Positions 1 to 62,250 of a stretch of 64,000 nt of DNA are shown in pieces. The translations under genes and the position numbers were made by a program. Under the pieces are notes generated by a model. The model searched no databases, had not been told where the DNA came from, and was given only the letters and a program-made list of their open reading frames with translations. How positions within the stretch are numbered: position 1 is the first letter of the stretch; each line of letters opens with the position of its first letter. Source of the stretch: Phragmitibacter flavus (GTDB taxonomy: Bacteria; Verrucomicrobiota; Verrucomicrobiia; Verrucomicrobiales; Verrucomicrobiaceae); NCBI RefSeq assembly GCF_005780165.1, contig NZ_VAUV01000006.1, forward strand, positions 248,001 to 312,000. The letters run 5' to 3'.

Positions 1-569
1 TCTACCATAAAACCTACGGAAGCCACCAAAACATCGCTCCTGAATTCCTTGCCTAAGAAGCCAGGCAAATAGTCCCATTTCCCCGCACCTTCACTGAGCT
101 TTGCCCCGTCCAAATAACTTCTTGGACACCCATAAGTTAAAATCAGATCGCGAACCTCAACCTCCTTAATCAAAGTGCGAAGCATTGGAAAAAAGAATCT
201 CTTTGGAAGAGACGAGATGTCAAGGATTATCGATGAACCCTTCTTGGCGAGAGTGTCCGAAATAGCCTGAATCTCATGAAGTTCGGCAAGTAACTCAATC
301 TGATACACATCGGAATTCTCTGCACACAACAATCGGAACTGGCGCATTCTTTCAACAAGCCTATCTTGAGTTTTGAGGAAATAGCGCGTGCCCAACATCG
401 GATCCACTTGAACCATTGAAATACTTCTGACTAAGCCAAGATCTTTGACCCAACGCAATGCGCTGAGTGAACGATCCTCCGTTCCAATTGCACCAATGAA
501 ATTCCATTCCCTTGGTTCAGAGATCGAAATCGCCCAGTCCAACAAACCCCACGGCCTAAATCTGCTCAT
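1..569 (-). CDS. Unrecognised protein of the left-edge operon, 5' part only
   Basis: The frame opens at ATG 569 (MSRFRPWGLLDW) and stays open to the window edge, so about 189 N-terminal residues are visible and the C-terminus is missing. I do not recognise the family. Visible features are an acidic stretch GAIGTEDRSLSAL, a hydrophobic strand followed by LDISSLPKRFFFP near residues 118-130, and then LILTYGCPRSYLDGAKLSE and a WDYLPGF segment. This strand-loop pattern suggests an alpha/beta Rossmann-like fold, which is inference. It lies 11 bases downstream of the ATPase gene on the same strand, so it is probably the fourth gene of the cytosine methyltransferase/PRTase/ATPase operon. Base composition is AT-rich like its partners. 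The coding call is firm; the function is unknown. Confidence 0.8.
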   Translation of the reverse strand, partial: MSRFRPWGLLDWAISISEPREWNFIGAIGTEDRSLSALRWVKDLGLVRSISMVQVDPMLGTRYFLKTQDRLVERMRQFRLLCAENSDVYQIELLAELHEIQAISDTLAKKGSSIILDISSLPKRFFFPMLRTLIKEVEVRDLILTYGCPRSYLDGAKLSEGAGKWDYLPGFLGKEFRSDVLVASVGFMV

Positions 570-580
570 ACTTTAAATAT

Positions 581-2698
581 TCAGAATAGCTTTAATTGCT
601 CGTCACTTTCATCACCAGCATTTCTAATGCGGAGAACCTTTTTTGCCTCCCAATCTTCTGATGCAACAAGCGTGAGCGGCACCTCGGCTTCTTTGAGAAT
701 CCAAATCAGTTGATTTATTTCCCAGTAGAGCGGCTCTTTAGTGTGCGCCACGGGCAGCTGAAAAACCGGGGAAAGAACAGGGTGAAGATAAAACTTCAGT
801 CGTTGTTCACCAGATTGCTTCTTTGTTGTGTGATCGGAAACTACCAGCGCACCCCATCCCACGCACTGTTTTAAAAAACTCCATGCAATTCGATTCTCGG
901 GTGCATCTAACTCAAGGACGTTCACCTCTAAAGAAAATCCGTTGCCCCCAGGATAAGACATTTTCTTATCTTCCCGAAGGGAACGTCTCAAATAATTTCC
1001 AAGCTTTCCGATGAAGCGTTGCCTTATATCACCACCGGGCTTATGTTCGGCAAGTTTATTATACCAAACCTTACTAGCTTCCTGTATTCCCAATGCCTGA
1101 TACTTTCTGTCGATAAACTCTCCAATCAAGGGATTGGACTGCCTCTCCCCTAATGCCTTCTTTCCCTGCTCTATTTTGAGAAACTGATTCCAGATTCCAT
1201 GACATATTCCAAGAAATGCCAGAATATTCCCACCACTGAGATCTAAAATATCTCGCTTTCCCCACCACATGAGTCGCTGACCTCGTCGGGCTGCGAGCTG
1301 CAATGCAGCCAGTGTCAGCCTTTCTTTCCGCCACCATTGGTTTTCCCAAGGATAAGGAGATTCGGTTGGTGGGGGAGCACTACGATGCTCAAGCTTACCT
1401 CTCCCACCTCCAGTTTGCCGTCCCCACGCAGCTGCAAGCACTGCTTCAAGCGGTTCTTTTATAAACAACTCTGACAAAAACGATTTCCATTCCTTACTCC
1501 AAAGTAGAGTTTCCTCTTTGTCGGTGATTGCAAGCGCTCTTTCGTAAGAACCAGCCGCAGGAGAAGGCGAACTAAAAATCGATTGGGTGCGATCTCGCTT
1601 GAGTGCTGAGCAAGAAAATACAGCCTCTAGCGGGTCAAGCCTCTGATCGATATCCTCATCCAAATAATACTTAATCCGCCGCAAAAACGCATCTTTAGCA
1701 AAAATTTCAAATGTGCCTTTCACATTCTCAGTCCTTCTCCACGCAGCATCGAAATCTGTGATGTGGTAGTCTCTTTCCTCCTCAAGGACTCCTCCTCCGA
1801 AAACGCCAAGACACCCCTCAGTATTCCAACCGTAGGGCCGCGAACCCAGTCTATAAGCCACGCGAAGATCTCGCTTTCCAAGGGCACCATTGAGCATTTG
1901 CCTGAAAGCCAATCGTAGGCTTGCCGGTAAACCAGCGGGAGCATGAACCAATTCTTCAATTTGATCAATCCTTATGAAAACGGGCACGTCATCAATCACA
2001 CCGGTTGATTTTAAGCAATCAACGGTCCTTAAGATAGGCTCTCCGACCATACTCTTTGAATCCCTCAAGAGTTTGGGTGCTCCGTCGAAGCGCATATTGT
2101 GCCCCATCCAGTTACGATAGCACGCTATGCGGTCCTTGATGCGAACCATCAGATCACCAGACGTTTGGCAACCATTTAATGCACCAGCCCAACAATCTTG
2201 TTTGATAAGCTTCTTGACAAATTGCTTTTCAGCCGAAAGAGACACAAGCGATCCAAATGTATCTGGATTCTCTTCAATTATCTTTAGATTCTCCATTAGA
2301 TCGAGAATCACTTTATAGTTGAATAAATCCCCAAAGTAATACGGCAACTCCTGGATGTCATGCTGCTGCCCTTGACCCAAGGTAACTCCCGCAAGATGGG
2401 CGATACCGCTCTTCGTGAGATTGATTCCCGCCGAAAGGAATTGAGCATGATCAGCAGGAACGGGGAACGGTTCTTTGTATTTGCGATATGCAATTCGAAT
2501 CTCAGGTCGCAACAGGGTTAATAGCATCGTTTTGCCGCATCCTTGGGAGCCCAAAAGAACGACATTGCCTGCTTGAAAAAGCTGATGAAACTCAACAAGC
2601 GAATCCATCGGCTTGCTACTAAATAGCCGCACAAAGTGCTCTTGATCAACGGAATCAGCGACATATAATTCCTGAAATGGATTATGTGAATAATTCAT
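581..2698 (-). CDS. ORC/CDC6-like P-loop ATPase, putative conflict-system component
   Basis: A 705-residue protein with a clear Walker A, GSQGCGKT, at residues 50-57 and a Walker-B-like strand FIRIDQIEEL near residue 240. The P-loop sits close to the N-terminus after a short NPFQELYV segment, the arrangement seen in prokaryotic ORC/CDC6-type AAA ATPases found beside conflict genes. That family assignment is from memory and not tested. The C-terminal half is long, has no recognised domain and may be a winged-helix or interaction region. Its ATG lies 3 bases after the PRTase-like stop codon, so translation is probably coupled. Function is inferred: an ATP-dependent sensor or regulator for the neighbouring proteins. 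No transmembrane segment is evident. Confidence 0.72.
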   Translation of the reverse strand: MNYSHNPFQELYVADSVDQEHFVRLFSSKPMDSLVEFHQLFQAGNVVLLGSQGCGKTMLLTLLRPEIRIAYRKYKEPFPVPADHAQFLSAGINLTKSGIAHLAGVTLGQGQQHDIQELPYYFGDLFNYKVILDLMENLKIIEENPDTFGSLVSLSAEKQFVKKLIKQDCWAGALNGCQTSGDLMVRIKDRIACYRNWMGHNMRFDGAPKLLRDSKSMVGEPILRTVDCLKSTGVIDDVPVFIRIDQIEELVHAPAGLPASLRLAFRQMLNGALGKRDLRVAYRLGSRPYGWNTEGCLGVFGGGVLEEERDYHITDFDAAWRRTENVKGTFEIFAKDAFLRRIKYYLDEDIDQRLDPLEAVFSCSALKRDRTQSIFSSPSPAAGSYERALAITDKEETLLWSKEWKSFLSELFIKEPLEAVLAAAWGRQTGGGRGKLEHRSAPPPTESPYPWENQWWRKERLTLAALQLAARRGQRLMWWGKRDILDLSGGNILAFLGICHGIWNQFLKIEQGKKALGERQSNPLIGEFIDRKYQALGIQEASKVWYNKLAEHKPGGDIRQRFIGKLGNYLRRSLREDKKMSYPGGNGFSLEVNVLELDAPENRIAWSFLKQCVGWGALVVSDHTTKKQSGEQRLKFYLHPVLSPVFQLPVAHTKEPLYWEINQLIWILKEAEVPLTLVASEDWEAKKVLRIRNAGDESDEQLKLF

Positions 2699-2701
2699 AG
2701 A

Positions 2702-3745
2702 TCAAGCCCTTGAGGATCGTGGGAACAGTGGTATCCACCTATTCTTTAGCACTTTTTGATGAATCAATGACAACGAATTGTTCGGAACATTGGAGTATGT
2801 CACAACTGAACAGCCAGTTTCTTTGTAGCCGAAAGGTTCTTTTATACCATGCGATGACACCAATCTATTCGCCAAATCCTCCATTTCATTTCTCTGTTCC
2901 CAAGTGTTTTCAGATTCACCATTTGCCCCAAGCAGATTATCGGGACCAATTTCTACAACCGGAGATGCCGTGAGAAGACTTGGATAGTCATCAATCATTT
3001 CATTCAGAACAATCATTCCTGGCCCACAAATAATCAATGGAACAACGAGAATCTGAATATCAAGTCGTTGCGCGGCCCACTTTACTGCAGATTTCATCTG
3101 AGTTCCGCTGCCCACAAAGTCTTCCAACAGCACAAGGCGTTTGAGTGGCCTTTCCCTTCTTGGTCCCCGGTCTGGCTTTTTCATGAATCCTTTTAAGTTA
3201 TCCAATAGAGTTTGGTCTGGAGCAAGATTGATTGGATTTAGCATTGCTAGAGTTGAAAAGCTCGGACGATGTTCAATGCCACTAATATGATTTGCGTGAT
3301 AAAACTCGTTAATACCCATGCTGTCGGTTATTGGGCAATACCAAGTATGCCTTTTAAGTTCACGTTCTAATTTCCTGGAGAAATGAGGATCACTAAATCG
3401 CAGTCCTGCTTGCGTAATTACCCATCTAGTGATGGGACCACAAAAAGCCGCTCTGTATAGAGAAATAAAATCTTGATGAGAAAAAAAGCTGATTCTCTGA
3501 GCGTATTCTAATAGTAATTTTTGATCCTCGGAACTATCGACATTTCCAATCCATGAAGCTAATCGATCTAGAAATCCGATTTCAAAAGCAGCGCTCTCGG
3601 CTGGAACATAGTTACACCACTCATGTTTGCCTAGAAACTCCAGCCGATTAAGGATTTCTAAATATTTCGATGTGAGTTCGATGTTATCGCCGATATACCC
3701 AGCATCCCATTCCCCGACGGCATCTCTTAGTGCATTAATTTTCAT
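2702..3745 (-). CDS. Phosphoribosyltransferase-like protein (PRTase-CE type)
   Basis: About 347 residues from ATG 3745; a TTG at 3751 would add two residues but overlaps the methyltransferase stop. Near residues 205-216 is the segment VLLEDFVGSGTQ, which matches the hydrophobic-acidic-acidic-x-x-x-G-T PRPP-binding loop of phosphoribosyltransferases. The rest, including an N-terminal helical part of about 200 residues, has no domain I recognise, so it is unlike the short salvage PRTases. Related PRTase-like proteins have been noted in comparative genomics of prokaryotic conflict systems (recalled, not checked). The gene is 2 bases downstream of the methyltransferase and 3 bases upstream of the ATPase. 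A role as an effector acting on nucleotides or PRPP is inference. Confidence 0.68.
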   Translation of the reverse strand: MKINALRDAVGEWDAGYIGDNIELTSKYLEILNRLEFLGKHEWCNYVPAESAAFEIGFLDRLASWIGNVDSSEDQKLLLEYAQRISFFSHQDFISLYRAAFCGPITRWVITQAGLRFSDPHFSRKLERELKRHTWYCPITDSMGINEFYHANHISGIEHRPSFSTLAMLNPINLAPDQTLLDNLKGFMKKPDRGPRRERPLKRLVLLEDFVGSGTQMKSAVKWAAQRLDIQILVVPLIICGPGMIVLNEMIDDYPSLLTASPVVEIGPDNLLGANGESENTWEQRNEMEDLANRLVSSHGIKEPFGYKETGCSVVTYSNVPNNSLSLIHQKVLKNRWIPLFPRSSRA

Positions 3746-3747
3746 AA

Positions 3748-4926
3748 TCAATTACCAAGTAAGCGTTTTGCCAATTTGGCAGCAAGACAACCAAGTGGAG
3801 GTGGAACGGCATTTCCAATAAGCCGGTATTGCGCCTGCTCTCCTCCGCTAAAAACATAGGAATCGGGGAAACCCTGGATCCGAGCCGCTTCACGCACCGA
3901 GAACCCCCTCTGCTTCGATGGATGCAGGAAATATCGTGGCGATCCGAAGCGCGTATCCACTGTGTAGCTCGGCTTATCCCAAGCCAATCTGCGATATTTT
4001 CCATTGAAGGTTCCAACTAGGTCCACGGTGTCAGCGATTCTCCGCAGATAACCTTTTTCGATTAACCCTTCCAAAAGTTGATGAAACGTTTCTCCAAGTG
4101 CTGCCTCTAGTCGTTTTATGGATACAGGGTCAGCATCGCCATAACTCCGCGCGCGCTCCTGCCTCCGAAGCCGCCTAAGCAGTTCCAGAACAGTGCGCTC
4201 GTGTTGCGTAACACTTCCAAATACCTCCGGTATATCCCAAGTTGCTACAGCGTTCTCACCACCACGGACATTCGAAAGTTTTTGTCCCTGTAAGATGCGC
4301 TTTGCAATCAATGCATCCCGTCCGCCAGGATCAAGCTGAATGGGATTGTGATTCTTTTCCTTGTAGGCACCTGTAAGGACCGTTCGGAGATCGCCAGCCG
4401 CCTTATTGTCTATCTCGAAATCACCATCCCTTTTAGTCCTCCAGGCTATGAACAGAACTCGACGTCTTAACTGTGCCATTCCAAGATCTGCGGTCTGACA
4501 TCGAATAGTTTTCGTCAGATACCCTGCATCCTTCATCATTCCGTCCAATGCATTGAAATACTTTACATGTTCCCCGGAGAGGGCGCCAGACACGTTCTCA
4601 ACCACCAGAACTTTAGGGGAGATTCTAAGCGCTAGCGTTCCAGTTAGGGTGAGGAGATGGTTCCGCTTATCATCCACAAGCCGCTTTCCGGCGGTAGAGA
4701 AACCTTGGCATGGTGGCCCCGCGATCAGGACGTCAACATTTCGAAGGTTTCGTTCATGTGGGATTCCATTAGTTAAATCTGTTCGATAGATCTCCCCACA
4801 TACGTTAGATTCAAAATTTTTCACAGCCTCATGATCAAGATCATATGCACCTTTAGGGCGAAATCCGCTGGAAGTGAAGCCGAGGTCAAAGCCTCCGCAT
4901 CCTGAAAAAAGGCTAGCGAATGTCAT
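3748..4926 (-). CDS. DNA (cytosine-5-)-methyltransferase
   Basis: A C5-cytosine methyltransferase with the family motifs in order. Motif I is FASLFSGCGGFDLGF at the N-terminus, motif IV is GPPCQGFSTAGKR with catalytic Cys near residue 73, motif VI is ENVSG near 110, motif VIII is QLRRRVLF near 150, and motif X is RLIGNAVPPPLG near 375. The variable region between VIII and X is about 200 residues and would set the target sequence. I chose ATG 4926 because AAAGGA lies just upstream and motif I then begins at residue 3; in-frame starts at 4941 and 4959 are possible. No restriction endonuclease is visible beside it. Instead it leads an operon with the PRTase-like and ATPase genes, suggesting host-DNA marking in a larger system. 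Confidence 0.92.
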   Translation of the reverse strand: MTFASLFSGCGGFDLGFTSSGFRPKGAYDLDHEAVKNFESNVCGEIYRTDLTNGIPHERNLRNVDVLIAGPPCQGFSTAGKRLVDDKRNHLLTLTGTLALRISPKVLVVENVSGALSGEHVKYFNALDGMMKDAGYLTKTIRCQTADLGMAQLRRRVLFIAWRTKRDGDFEIDNKAAGDLRTVLTGAYKEKNHNPIQLDPGGRDALIAKRILQGQKLSNVRGGENAVATWDIPEVFGSVTQHERTVLELLRRLRRQERARSYGDADPVSIKRLEAALGETFHQLLEGLIEKGYLRRIADTVDLVGTFNGKYRRLAWDKPSYTVDTRFGSPRYFLHPSKQRGFSVREAARIQGFPDSYVFSGGEQAQYRLIGNAVPPPLGCLAAKLAKRLLGN

Positions 4927-5287
4927 ACATCCTTTCGTCATACCAACGCGAATAAGCACTGATGATTGGTTTCTTGAAAACCTTGCTGAGGAGCCACCAT
5001 TCCCCCTCCAGCACGCCGTTCCCCAATTCCTTGATAATGAATGGCTGATTCGCTAACAAGATGTCTGCGGGGAACTCCGGGAGCTGGTCCCGGGTGACAG
5101 TGTCCGCCGGTTGCTTGCCAAAGTCGATTCCGCAAATTGCCATGTTTATCGCCGCCAACCGCCGAGTAATAGGACCGCTTTCCTTCCCGTAAACCGCAGC
5201 ATCGAGATTTGACCACAGCTTGTCTGCTGTAGTCCATAGTTTTTTTTCGAGCTCACCGATGAAAGCTTGTGAATTAGAAGACTGCAT
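4913..5287 (-). pseudogene. Gutted type I restriction methylase (HsdM) relic
   Basis: The 124-residue frame starts like HsdM (LEKKLWTTADKLWSNLDAAVYG) and then jumps directly to the region around the catalytic motif (RLAAINMAICGIDFGKQPADT ... ADILLANQPF). In HsdM proteins these segments are separated by well over 100 residues, so the middle has been deleted in frame. The adenine-methylase motif IV, normally N-P-P-F/Y, reads N-Q-P-F. The C-terminal two thirds of HsdM is replaced by a short unrelated tail. No hsdS or hsdR is visible. The relic ends 14 bases inside the start of the cytosine methyltransferase and may now serve only as its leader. Confidence 0.75.
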
Positions 5288-7626: not shown

Positions 7627-7845
7627 ATGATCGACCGCATCACCTTCAACGCCAATCAATGTGGCGGACGGCCTTGCATACGAGGCATGCGCATTCGTGT
7701 CAAGGATGTGCTCGACTTGCTTGCTGCGGGCGTGTCTGAGAAGGAAATCCTCGAAGATTACCCGTATTTGGAATCTGAAGACATCAGGGCCTCTCTGGAA
7801 TACGCCGCCAGCGAAATCGACCACCCTGTATTACTCGTCCGTTAG
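7627..7845 (+). CDS. DUF433 antitoxin-like protein
   Basis: A 72-residue protein of the DUF433 family, a small winged-helix/HTH-like group usually encoded before PIN-like DUF5615 toxins. It begins MIDRITFNANQCGGRPCIRG, the typical G-(R/K)-P-(C/V)-I-(R/K)-G signature, and continues with VKDVLDLLAAGVSEKEILEDYPYLESEDIRASLEYAASE, the helix-rich DNA-binding part. Length matches the family. The downstream toxin reading frame begins 3 bases after the stop but is broken, so this antitoxin may be an orphan. Autoregulation of the pair is usual in such modules but not shown here. Confidence 0.88.
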   Translation: MIDRITFNANQCGGRPCIRGMRIRVKDVLDLLAAGVSEKEILEDYPYLESEDIRASLEYAASEIDHPVLLVR

Positions 7846-7848
7846 TCC

Positions 7849-8177
7849 ATGTGATTCCTGATCGATGCGCAGTTGCCTCGGCGTTGAGCCGGTTGCTCAG
7901 CGCCAGTGGATATGCATCCGATCACGTGGCTGACCTTGGGATGAGGGATGCAGATGACGCATCTGTTTGGGCTTACGCCCTTGAGCACGGCGCGGCAATC
8001 ATCACCAAAGACGAAGATTTCTCTCTACGTTTGCGCCAGAGCGGCACGGGCCCCGCCATTGTCTGGCTGCGCATTGGCAACACCAGCCGACGGGCACTCC
8101 TGAATTGGTTCGAGCCGCTGCTCCCACAGATTATCCAGCTTATTCAGCAAGGCGATCAGCTCATTGAGGTTCGCTAA
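7849..8177 (+). pseudogene. DUF5615 PIN-like toxin broken by a stop and a frameshift
   Basis: The body of a DUF5615 (PIN-like nuclease) toxin is clear: LSRLLSASGYASDHVADLGMRDADD ... WAYALEHGAAIITKDEDF ... PAIVWLRIGN. The N-terminus is damaged. From ATG 7849 the frame reads Met-stop-F-L-I-D-A-Q-L-P-R, where TGA replaces what is probably a Trp codon, then falls out of frame at about 7879-7883 by loss of one base. Restoring both gives MWFLIDAQLPRALSRLL, the family's first strand with its acidic residue. Translation from GTG 7851 would give a protein whose first 10 residues are nonsense and which lacks that Asp. The partner DUF433 gene looks intact. Sequencing error is the alternative. Confidence 0.78.
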
Positions 8178-58875: not shown

Positions 58876-61070
58876 TGAAATCCTCCCTCGTCTTCCATCC
58901 CACCCCGCTGTCCCTCACAGCGGGCATCGGACTGGTCGTCGTCATCGCCCTCCTCAGCTACCTCGGCTGGAAACGCTCCAACTACAAACGCACCACCGGC
59001 TGGCTCGAACTCCTCCGCTTCGGCATCGCCACCGGCATCGCCCTCACCCTCAACCAGCCCGAGTGGCACCAAACCTTCACCCCCGACACCAAACCCGTGC
59101 TCGCCATCCTTTGGGACAACTCCCGCAGCATGGAAACCCGCGACGTCATCGACCCCGCCACTCCCGCTTCCGAACCCCGCTCCCGCGCCGAAACCCTCCC
59201 TCCCCTCATCGACCCCAATCTCTGGCAGCCCCTCGCCAAACGCCTCAACATCCTCATCGGCCCCTTCTCCTCCGCCCAAACTCCCCCCGAAGAAGGCACC
59301 GACATCAATGCCGCCCTCCAGTCCCTCCTCGAACAACAACCCAACCTCGCCGCCGTCCTCCTTCTCTCCGACGGCGACTGGAACACCGGCACCCCACCCG
59401 CCCAGGCCGCCACCCGCCTGCGCATGCGCGACACCCCCCTCTTCACCGTCCCCATTGGCTCCGACACCAAACTTCCCGACCTCGAACTCACCGCCTTCGA
59501 TGTCCCCACCTTCGCCATCGCCGGCAAACCCCTGCGCATCCCCTTCACCATCACCAGCTCACTCCCGCGCGACGAAACCCTCACCGTTGAACTCAAAACC
59601 CCCGGCGGCGAAATCATCAGCAAGACCCTCACCCTCCCCGCCATGGCCACCCACCAGGACAGCATCGCCTGGCGACCTGCCGATCCCGGCGAAACCACTC
59701 TCACCCTCACCCTTCCGAAAACCGGGGCCGAACGTTACCTCGAAAACAACACCCTCAGCGCCCCCCTCACCATCCGCAAAGAACAGCTCCGCGTCCTCCT
59801 CGTTGAAACCTATCCCCGCTGGGAATACCGCTACCTCCGCAACGCCCTCGACCGCGACCCCGGCATCGATGTCCACTGCCTCCTTCTCCATCCCGGCCTC
59901 GGCAAACCCGCCACCGGAAACGGCTACCTCCCCGCCTTTCCCAAAGACGACCAGCTCGCCCAATATGACGTCATCTTCCTCGGCGACATCGGCCTCACCC
60001 CCGGTCAACTCACCCAGGAAAACGTCGTCGCCCTGCAAAAACTCATTCGCGACCAGGCCACCGGACTCGTCTTCCTCCCCGGTATCCACGGCCATCAGCT
60101 TACCCTCGCCAACACCCCCCTCGCCGACCTCCTCCCCATCCAGTGGGACGAAACCCAACCCCGCGGTTGGGGCTCCACCACCCCCGGCAAAATCGTCCTC
60201 ACCGAAACCGGCGCCCAATCCCTCCTCACCAAACTCGGCGACACCGACGAGCTGAGCACCTCCGTCTGGGCCACCCTCCCCGGCTTCCAATGGCACGCCC
60301 CCGCCCTCCGCGCCAAAGCTGGCAGTGAAGTCCTCGCCACCCACGGCAGCGAATCCAACCGCTTCGGCCGCATCCCCCTCATCGTCACCAAAACCTACGG
60401 CGCCGGCAAAATCCTCTACATGGGAGCCGACGGAGCCTGGCGCTGGCGACGCGGCGTCGAAGACCGCCACCACTACCGCTTCTGGGGCCAGGTCGTCCGC
60501 TGGATGGCCTACCAACGCAACATGGCCGGCGGCGACCGCATCCGCCTCTTCTACACCCCCGACCGACCAAAAACCGGCGACACCCTCACCCTCAACGCCA
60601 ACGTCATGACCCTCAGCGGCGAACCCCAGCGCGACGGTGCCGTCATCGCTCAGATCGCCACCCCCACCGGCAAGACCAGCAGCATCCGCCTCACCCCCGC
60701 CGGCGACGAAGCCTGGGGACTCTTCACCGCCACCTTCACCCCCACCGAACCCGGCGAACATCAAATCAACCTCACCAGTCCCAGCGCCAACGCCAGTCTC
60801 GAAACCAAACTCTCCGTCCAGGGCAGCACCCGTGAAAAACTCGGTCAGCCCATCAAAAAAGAACTTCTTCGCGAACTCGCCCAAATCACCCGCGGCCAGC
60901 TTCTCGAAACCACCGACCCCACCGCCCTCCTCGCCACCCTCACCAACCTCCCCGAACCCCAACCCACCGAGCGACGTATTCCTCTCTGGGCACACCCCGT
61001 TTGGGCTGGTATATTGCTCACATTAATGGCCCTTTTCTGGATCGGCCGCAAAGCCACCGGCGCTTTTTGA
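58875..61070 (+). CDS. VWA/glutamine-amidotransferase-like membrane protein
   Basis: About 731 residues if TTG 58875 is the start; no ATG fits and the frame stays open through the repeat array upstream. N-terminal membrane helix GIGLVVVIALLSYLGW, a second helix near LELLRFGIATGIALTL, then a VWA-like MIDAS in LAILWDNSRSME. Next is a beta-rich domain and a glutamine-amidotransferase-like Rossmann part (LRVLLVETYPRWEYRYLRNALDRDPGIDVHCLLLHPG, LVFLPGIHGHQ, GAGKILYMGADGAWRWRR). A C-terminal membrane helix closes it. It belongs to the MoxR/DUF58/BatA set. Confidence 0.85.
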   Translation: MKSSLVFHPTPLSLTAGIGLVVVIALLSYLGWKRSNYKRTTGWLELLRFGIATGIALTLNQPEWHQTFTPDTKPVLAILWDNSRSMETRDVIDPATPASEPRSRAETLPPLIDPNLWQPLAKRLNILIGPFSSAQTPPEEGTDINAALQSLLEQQPNLAAVLLLSDGDWNTGTPPAQAATRLRMRDTPLFTVPIGSDTKLPDLELTAFDVPTFAIAGKPLRIPFTITSSLPRDETLTVELKTPGGEIISKTLTLPAMATHQDSIAWRPADPGETTLTLTLPKTGAERYLENNTLSAPLTIRKEQLRVLLVETYPRWEYRYLRNALDRDPGIDVHCLLLHPGLGKPATGNGYLPAFPKDDQLAQYDVIFLGDIGLTPGQLTQENVVALQKLIRDQATGLVFLPGIHGHQLTLANTPLADLLPIQWDETQPRGWGSTTPGKIVLTETGAQSLLTKLGDTDELSTSVWATLPGFQWHAPALRAKAGSEVLATHGSESNRFGRIPLIVTKTYGAGKILYMGADGAWRWRRGVEDRHHYRFWGQVVRWMAYQRNMAGGDRIRLFYTPDRPKTGDTLTLNANVMTLSGEPQRDGAVIAQIATPTGKTSSIRLTPAGDEAWGLFTATFTPTEPGEHQINLTSPSANASLETKLSVQGSTREKLGQPIKKELLRELAQITRGQLLETTDPTALLATLTNLPEPQPTERRIPLWAHPVWAGILLTLMALFWIGRKATGAF

Positions 61071-61133
61071 AAATTTAATTCTCAATTGCTGCAAATATTG
61101 AATCGACGGAACTCAATCAAGCCCGCCAAAACT

Positions 61134-61766
61134 ATGAGCTACTACACCAATTTCGTTAAAGACTTTCCCAGTCGATGCCTAGACTTACTAAAGTTTGAAA
61201 TGGAGGCAAAGAACAAAAATCTTGAGGTTACGTTGCTTCTTGTGGTCGCCGGACAAGCGATCTTCATGCCTTACGAGAGGCTGGATTTAAACAACTCAAA
61301 AAACAAGCACCCCTCAAAAGACTTCGAAAAATTTGAAACCGCGAGGTCTGATCTTCAAAAGGAGTTAGCTAAAAAATGCAAAGACTCCAGGCTATTTAAA
61401 GATGAAAATGGATCCTACAATTCCCATGCTTGGATCTACAAAGAATGTGCACCGGATCAAGTGAACCATGAAGCCGTCCCTGGTATGAGGCCAGTCGAAG
61501 ATAAGCTTGCCCTCACGATTGTTAAAATCCTTCGAAACGCACTTGCGCATGGCAATCTTCGAACGAACGGAAATCCCATCGATCGCTTGGTTTTCTTGTC
61601 CGGTATATACGAGTCTCCGAACTATAATCGCCTGGAATGCACTCCAGATAGCTTGCGATGCTTTCTGAAAAATTGGGCGACGATGCTGAAAAAATTAAAA
61701 ATTGATCATGCAACCATCATCGAAGGTCAATTCGGATCAGAGCTTCTCGAATCAGATGCCGCCTAA
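61134..61766 (+). CDS. HEPN-like protein in an AT-rich islet
   Basis: A 210-residue protein from ATG 61134. Its C-terminal half has the HEPN signature VEDKLALTIVKILRNALAHGNL, with R-N-x4-H (RNALAH). HEPN domains with this motif are metal-independent RNases in many toxins and defence proteins. The N-terminal part (FVKDFPSRCLDLLKFEMEAKNKNLEVTLLLVVAGQAIFMPYERLD) is helical. The gene's base composition is markedly more AT-rich than the flanking operon. It overlaps the next gene by 11 bases. The protein is not followed by a MNT-type nucleotidyltransferase, the usual HEPN partner. Confidence 0.75.
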   Translation: MSYYTNFVKDFPSRCLDLLKFEMEAKNKNLEVTLLLVVAGQAIFMPYERLDLNNSKNKHPSKDFEKFETARSDLQKELAKKCKDSRLFKDENGSYNSHAWIYKECAPDQVNHEAVPGMRPVEDKLALTIVKILRNALAHGNLRTNGNPIDRLVFLSGIYESPNYNRLECTPDSLRCFLKNWATMLKKLKIDHATIIEGQFGSELLESDAA

Positions 61767-62250
61767 ACTAGCATTTTATCCCTGCTGCGCAACCGATATC
61801 GAGGAACCGCGACATCTGCTATCCGGAATTGTAGATGAAATAATTTTCTGTGATATTCGGGAATACGAATCTTGGGAACCACTCGCAACTAGCCCAAATC
61901 TCCCTCAAGCTCGTTTTGTTATCATGGATGTTCGAAACGATCTATCACTCCTACCGCAGATTGATGTTTTCTTCTATCGTCGTGATTCTAATGGCGAGGG
62001 AGGCAGTGGTGTTTTCCTTCTATCTAAAACCTATCTAGATAAAATTATGAGGCGCATGAACCCTTCTGGAGGACTTCTTATTACCGATGGATCCAACCGA
62101 GGAAATGGAATTTATAAGAAAATGCTACGCGCTGGGGGATACACTAATCAGGCTTGGGGCAAGCACTTCCAGCTTTCACCTCATCAAGATCATTTCGAAG
62201 TTCACGGTCTAAAGAAAATTGAAATCTCGCCAGCAGAGCCAACCCGCTAA
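61756..62250 (+). CDS. Rossmann-like protein paired with the HEPN gene
   Basis: A 164-residue protein from ATG 61756 (MPPKLAFYPCCATDIEEPRH); a start at 61702 is less likely. The order of elements resembles a class I SAM-methyltransferase-like fold: FYPCCATDIEEP, then IIFCDIRE, ARFVIMDVRNDL, DVFFYRRDSNGEGGSG and KIMRRMNPSGGLLITDGSN. No clear SAM motif is certain, so this is structural inference. Its start overlaps the HEPN stop by 11 bases, so the two are probably a unit, perhaps toxin and antitoxin. No family was recognised. Confidence 0.7.
   Translation: MPPKLAFYPCCATDIEEPRHLLSGIVDEIIFCDIREYESWEPLATSPNLPQARFVIMDVRNDLSLLPQIDVFFYRRDSNGEGGSGVFLLSKTYLDKIMRRMNPSGGLLITDGSNRGNGIYKKMLRAGGYTNQAWGKHFQLSPHQDHFEVHGLKKIEISPAEPTR

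Follow-up and report, generated by a model that had tools for sequence, protein, structure and literature searches.

Why a DNA methyltransferase should head an operon that holds no restriction endonuclease is the question raised by a locus in Phragmitibacter flavus. The stretch of DNA that was analysed, referred to here as the window, comprises 64,000 nucleotides (contig NZ_VAUV01000006.1, positions 248,001 to 312,000 of the forward strand); at its start, in positions 1 to 4926, four tightly packed minus-strand genes encode, in the order of transcription, a C5-cytosine DNA methyltransferase, a PRTase-CE protein (PRTase, phosphoribosyltransferase), an ORC-CDC6-like ATPase and a CARF6 protein. 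This gene order is kept in distant phyla and the four proteins are inherited together; in a wider family of loci, effectors and classes of methyltransferase are exchanged around a constant ORC-CARF6 core. Gene context strongly suggests that the cassette is linked to methylation, and the operon may be a methylation-gated abortive or replication-blocking defence cassette with an interchangeable, often nucleotide-attacking effector, a reading given about an even chance of being right.

Organization and base composition of the operon

The methyltransferase gene (window 3748..4926, 392 amino acids; PF00145, E = 4.3e-53) is the first of the four, with an alternative upstream GTG start possible at 4959, and its product carries the motifs PCQGFS, ENV, QLRRR and GNAVPPP. 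It is followed by the gene for the PRTase-CE protein (2702..3745, 347 amino acids from an ATG start; PF24390, E = 3.6e-27, bit score 96.3 vs a Pfam cut-off of 27), a predicted nucleotide-targeting effector that is also matched by the PADLOC model PRTase_III-A (E = 5.6e-21). The gene for the ORC-CDC6-like ATPase (581..2698, 705 amino acids; PF24389, E = 6.7e-34, bit score 118 vs a cut-off of 27) lies 3 bases from that of the effector, and its product has the Walker A motif GSQGCGKT and a Walker-B-like stretch, RIDQIEEL. The last gene extends beyond the window edge: its 5' part occupies 1..569, and the whole gene, of 329 amino acids, lies at L003:11581-12570 (window about -420..569).

The initial annotation had described four same-strand open reading frames (ORFs) at these places with gaps of 2, 3 and 11 bases, and had called the first three a C5 methyltransferase, a PRTase-like protein and an ORC-like ATPase; the gaps were confirmed and the profile searches bear out all three calls. 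The motif that it quoted as resembling a phosphoribosyl pyrophosphate (PRPP) loop, VLLEDFVGSGTQ, is present in the PRTase-like protein. The fourth protein, which it had left as unknown, has to be renamed, as it is matched by the PADLOC model CARF6--CARF_CARF_CARF at E = 6.8e-87. The contrast in base composition was also borne out: GC content is 46.0% in positions 1-4926 vs 58.9% in the remainder of the window, where the lowest value among 109 sliding windows of 4926 bp is 55.5%, so that none of the 109 comes down to the level of the operon.

The identities of the second and fourth proteins were examined further. The presumed PRPP loop, with its acidic pair, reads LLED.VG[ST]G.Q in all seven PRTase sequences. 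When a structure model of the PRTase was compared with the PDB by Foldseek, 45 of the 50 matches listed were phosphoribosyltransferases, including OMP and UMP synthase; the top match was NanR (E = 1.8e-3), the best PRTase scored E = 8.8e-3, and none of those listed reached E = 0.001. The CARF6 protein matched the Pfam family Csa3_N at E = 0.0096, under the cut-off. The model of its orthologue from locus L044 has a usable Rossmann-like N-terminal domain and an unreliable C-terminal half; the best PDB match of the N-terminal domain was Csa3 (2wte; probability 1.00, E = 4.6e-4, TM-scores 0.29/0.43), and Csa3 bound to cyclic tetra-adenylate (cA4) and a ring nuclease were also among the matches listed. 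Other Rossmann folds, mainly methyltransferases, score near Csa3, an rRNA methyltransferase being second at E = 8.1e-4. Searches of the PDB by sequence with the PRTase and CARF profiles gave no significant match. By its sequence, the fourth protein is assigned to the CARF6 group of the CARF superfamily.

The initial annotation had noted that no restriction endonuclease lies beside the methyltransferase, and this holds beyond the window edge as well: none was present in nine ORFs scanned with Pfam at L003 2101-11240, beyond CARF6, a set that excludes the shorter or more distant ORFs at L003 1-1516, 1734-2039, 5724-6011, 6016-6234 and 11277-11489.

Conservation of the four-gene order

A genome collection in which each of 84,980 species is represented once was scanned with the ORC alignment and yielded seven loci, five of them complete with the same order and strand and two cut by contig ends, in which all visible genes agree. 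The loci come from a Nitrospirae metagenome-assembled genome, a member of the Hydrogenophilales, a betaproteobacterium, a member of the Rhodocyclales, two Verrucomicrobia and an unplaced bacterium; one of the five complete loci (L046) is that of genome G310, which was already in the own-phylum sample described below. With another complete copy in G993, the order methyltransferase-PRTase-ORC-CARF is complete in seven genomes of four phyla, the P. flavus window included, besides the two cut copies. The initial annotation had taken the four genes for one system, and their co-occurrence in kept order in distant phyla agrees with this; chance adjacency is not credible in genomes of thousands of genes. 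The flanking genes differ among the copies. The L042 copy has a Vsr mismatch endonuclease directly after the cassette (L042:7626-8087, E = 1.3e-15) and an integrase before it (E = 1.3e-13).

Identity to the window proteins is 51-73% for the methyltransferase, 32-45% for the PRTase, 37-48% for ORC and 36-48% for CARF, and across 15 pairs from six loci the identities of the four proteins rise and fall together (r of 0.90-0.99). In six loci the presumed target-recognition region of the methyltransferase is 47-77% identical vs 50-81% for the catalytic part; a single recognition site has thus probably been kept, and it may be read by the core. The methyltransferase matches listed outside the cassette are general C5 enzymes, 27-29% identical on plasmids and 27-36% in phages. 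Because the recognition region is about as conserved as the catalytic part while these listed relatives are so distant, the cassette methyltransferases appear to constitute a dedicated subfamily that recognizes one site. A search of 72,556 plasmid records found nothing that matches ORC, CARF or PRTase, and no viral contig was confirmed.

Each of 19 genomes searched has between 0 and 4 C5 methyltransferase matches, and at E = 1e-10 or better the cassette gene is the sole match in four of six cassette genomes (G310, G387, G391 and G392), the other two being P. flavus (G000), with three, and G389, with two. An additional C5 methyltransferase gene of P. flavus (G000:C34:879-1589) is interrupted by four stops.

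The ORC-CARF6 core in a wider family

The loci of the family were collected through ORC (PF24389), independently of the methyltransferase. The four samples held 387 genomes from the phylum of P. flavus, 398 from that of G389, 14 from that of G391 and 395 from that of G387, and in the three large ones only three candidates were scored per genome. Of the 46 genomes selected, 11 passed the cut-off in the own phylum (60 weaker ones were left out), and the other samples contributed 11, 2 and 22 that matched at E = 1e-8. ORC adjoins CARF6 in 36 of the 46, at 37 loci (8, 9, 2 and 18 in the respective samples). PADLOC was run on 27 of the CARF proteins and matched every one to CARF6; the remaining 10 match these by phmmer. 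No CARF6 was detected by phmmer in eight of the 46 genomes (G259, G320, G384, G723, G893, G1006, G1099 and G1145); in G837 a contig end cuts the locus on the CARF side, and in G666 the contig ends shortly after CARF. G679, which was not counted, encodes a protein of 1239 amino acids (L072:5994-9713) with a kinase-ORC-like part (phmmer 1e-12) and a CARF-like part (4e-7), flanked on both sides by C5 methyltransferases that are encoded on the other strand.

Two loci (G1157 and G1043) were too short to assess, leaving 35 of the 37 in which a methyltransferase could be looked for. A DNA methyltransferase, identified with Pfam in some loci and by phmmer to those in the rest, lies in or beside the operon in 28 of them and is of the C5 (11 loci), N6 (4), D12 (3) or N6/N4 (10) class; three genes stand between it and the remaining set in G758 and one in G023. 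The slot before ORC is mostly filled by PRTase-CE, HD-CE (PF24391, E = 2e-22), a calcineurin-like metallophosphoesterase (PF00149, E = 1.5e-12) or, as a fusion with ORC, a kinase or a TIR domain. In one such fusion (L115:7576-9852), TIR (PF13676, E = 1.3e-18) is joined N-terminally to the ORC-CDC6-like ATPase beside CARF6 and N6/N4 methyltransferases, and the presence of a TIR domain in this slot suggests that it is an effector slot.

Five of the seven loci without a visible methyltransferase hold a HAD-type protein; PfkB is found in G096, G579, G418 and G918, and NADAR in G776 and G418. The HAD loci (L040, L070, L071, L073 and L119) are PRTase-ORC-CARF6 cassettes, and the HAD/PfkB/NADAR cassettes possibly form a modified-nucleotide or nucleotide-sugar branch. 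The near-identical loci of G515 and G666 have the calcineurin-like protein only, with no methyltransferase seen.

For ORC and CARF trees, four of the 37 loci were omitted (G666 as a near-copy of G515, G1157, G1043 and G1031) and G392 was added. The four-gene subtype (seven sequences) was recovered separately by the ORC tree (support 100/100) and the CARF tree (100/99), with identical inner branching. Of the seven subtype groups listed, all but the D12/calcineurin group form one side of a branch on both trees.

Proposed function and alternative explanations

Gene context appears to give its best support to the logic put forward in the initial annotation, in which a methyltransferase marks self and an ATPase is paired with a PRTase effector. 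The C5 methyltransferase would mark a recognition site on resident DNA, and the ORC-like ATPase and CARF6 would form the sensing core, with ORC probably loading on DNA and CARF6 binding a nucleotide-type ligand or signal. On meeting unmarked DNA, or a ligand that accompanies it, the core would release the PRTase-CE effector. The enzyme may degrade nucleotides, with cleavage of the glycosidic bond or consumption of PRPP as its probable reaction, and would thereby bring phage replication or the cell itself to a standstill. That the methyl-transfer chemistry varies while the ORC-CARF6 core is constant fits the notion that methylation itself matters. If so, methylation would license a nucleotide-destroying switch, rather than protect from an endonuclease: the logic of restriction-modification without restriction.

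Several observations weigh against this methylation-gated reading. Seven of the 35 assessable loci have no visible methyltransferase, and the core as such therefore needs no methylation; in G981 a ParA-like domain is fused to ORC, with no known effector. Sequence change has been much faster in ORC and CARF than in the methyltransferase, which is not expected of a tight reader of methylated sites. The PRPP loop deviates from the usual type I pattern, and the structure models have mean predicted local distance difference test (pLDDT) values of 55.9 and 66.6, a modest confidence. A single clade of C5 enzymes is weakly rejected by the approximately unbiased (AU) test (p = 0.042 on ORC, 0.081 on CARF), so that the case for C5 enzymes having been recruited independently is not firm, and a single PRTase clade is not rejected (AU p = 0.091 on ORC, 0.188 on CARF).

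Three other explanations have to be weighed. CARF domains in known systems bind cyclic oligoadenylates, and CARF6 may likewise be triggered by a ligand of nucleotide type, be it a cyclic oligonucleotide, a nucleotide modified by the phage or something made by the PRTase itself, and ORC may relay this signal to the effector, with methylation only guarding host DNA from a side activity or forming a parallel layer. The fold match of the L044 N-terminal domain to Csa3, cA4-bound entries included, is consistent with this, as are matches over the cut-off to Cas10-palm in three of eight cassette genomes (G388, G390 and G391) and to SMODS in one of six (G389), and the HAD/PfkB/NADAR variants suggest nucleotide or sugar chemistry over methylation. 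However, P. flavus, G310 and G387 have neither a Cas10-palm nor a SMODS match, and methyltransferases are present in 28 of the 35 ORC-CARF6 loci; this explanation is considered rather unlikely. The Cas10-palm model is imperfect, as it also fires on an Escherichia coli control; with that limit, the lack of both matches makes a CRISPR or CBASS messenger unlikely as the ligand in P. flavus, although such a messenger may be made in G388, G389, G390 and G391.

Alternatively, the core might watch over the methylation of its own host, such that loss of methylation, through phage inhibitors or loss of the element, triggers the PRTase as a toxin and the methyltransferase acts like an antitoxin that retains the element. 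The position of the methyltransferase as first gene, its being the sole C5 match in four of the six genomes searched, the conservation of its recognition region and the mobile look of the cassette (low GC content, an integrase next to one copy) all suit such a guard or addiction module, which is nonetheless held to be improbable; sequence alone cannot separate it from methylation-gated defence. It is quite improbable that the methyltransferase is a passenger, an orphan enzyme of the Dcm kind that sometimes goes with Vsr, beside a PRTase-ORC-CARF6 trio that acts alone. The seven loci with no methyltransferase seen and the Vsr gene after one cassette copy speak for it, but in all seven complete copies the methyltransferase is adjacent in the same order, the divergence of the four proteins is correlated, and other methyltransferase classes go with other subtypes.

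The methylation-gated reading can be extended to a general immune design, in which one ORC-CARF6 core would join interchangeable password and effector modules and couple epigenetic self-recognition to the destruction of nucleotides, not to DNA cutting. The password would be DNA methylation, whether of the C5, N6 or N4 type, or else a nucleotide-sugar module of HAD and PfkB, and the effector a PRTase, HD, calcineurin, TIR or kinase protein. This extension is possible, though on the doubtful side. The modular swapping of methyltransferases and effectors opens the way to direct swap experiments, and it raises the question of the CARF6 ligand in P. flavus.

Genomic surroundings of the operon

Upstream, a remnant of an N6 methyltransferase (124 amino acids, HsdM-like; PF02384, E = 1.8e-7; window 4913-5287) directly abuts the start of the operon and is probably a decayed type I restriction-modification gene at the same spot. 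Farther on, a gene pair at 7627-8177 encodes DUF433 (E = 5.1e-26) and DUF5615 PIN-like (E = 2.8e-21) proteins, likely a toxin-antitoxin module. On the other side, the next same-strand gene past CARF6 encodes an inverse autotransporter (PF11924, E = 1.1e-9); between these two genes lie overlapping ORFs of 182 and 124 amino acids on the opposite strand, neither of which has a Pfam match. One of the nine ORFs scanned for endonucleases encodes a PIN domain (L003:6501-6935, E = 2e-8), and an Rfam scan of L003 gave no match. At the far end of the window, an AT-rich patch at 61086-62250 (GC content 43.7% at 61001-62000) contains ORFs of 226 and 182 amino acids, the first with a weak match to HEPN pEK499_p136 under the cut-off (E = 0.0064) and the second without a Pfam match.

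Comparison with known systems

Pfam already has named domains for the PRTase and ORC families. A survey of nucleotide-targeting immune effectors (PRTase-CE, HD-CE and Calcineurin-CE) was reportedly made by Nicastro, Burroughs, Iyer and Aravind in Nucleic Acids Research (NAR) in 2023, and the Pfam names PRTase-CE, HD-CE, wHTH-Calcineurin_assc and ORC-CDC6-like are presumably derived from it. The domains found here match these four, which have nearby accessions (PF24389, PF24390, PF24391 and PF24408), and since the names point to that survey, the cassette is placed within a known kind of nucleotide-targeting effector systems. The PADLOC group name CARF6 we take to go back to Makarova et al. (NAR 2020). 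No description of the four-gene set was found in the literature searched; the gene tables of the 2023 and 2020 papers lay outside that search, so that it may have been published.

Four known identities were considered and rejected. A type II restriction-modification system does not fit, as the nine downstream ORFs scanned hold no endonuclease and in every complete copy the methyltransferase has PRTase, ORC and CARF as its neighbours. An accessory of type III CRISPR was set aside by the lack of a Cas10-palm match in P. flavus, yet three of eight cassette genomes have one by the same imperfect model; the P. flavus CARF6 is thus not a CRISPR accessory as far as that model tells. A CARF fed by CBASS was dismissed on the SMODS counts, one of six genomes and not P. 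flavus. A type III-A retron, which has a homologous PRTase in common with the operon, differs in that the operon consists of methyltransferase, PRTase, ORC and CARF only, with ORC and CARF6 in place of a reverse transcriptase.

A fusion of kinase, AAA+ and CARF parts is described by Makarova et al. 2014 (PMC4012209). In the DprA-PRTase system of P2-like phages, which is reported to protect against T7 and lambda, the PRTase is proposed to be the effector behind a DNA-binding sensor (PMC9122126); that system has DprA where the operon has ORC and CARF6, and the passage that describes it mentions no methyltransferase. The operon methyltransferase matches the DruM (E = 5.3e-60) and DrmMII (E = 1e-41) models but scores best with the PADLOC models of ordinary type II methyltransferases (E = 1.5e-70), and the best matches of its three partners are not the core genes of BREX, DISARM, Druantia, MADS or other methylation-linked defence systems. 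What the operon shares with these systems is the pairing of a methylation gene with a module that contains an ATPase, in which no classical endonuclease takes part.

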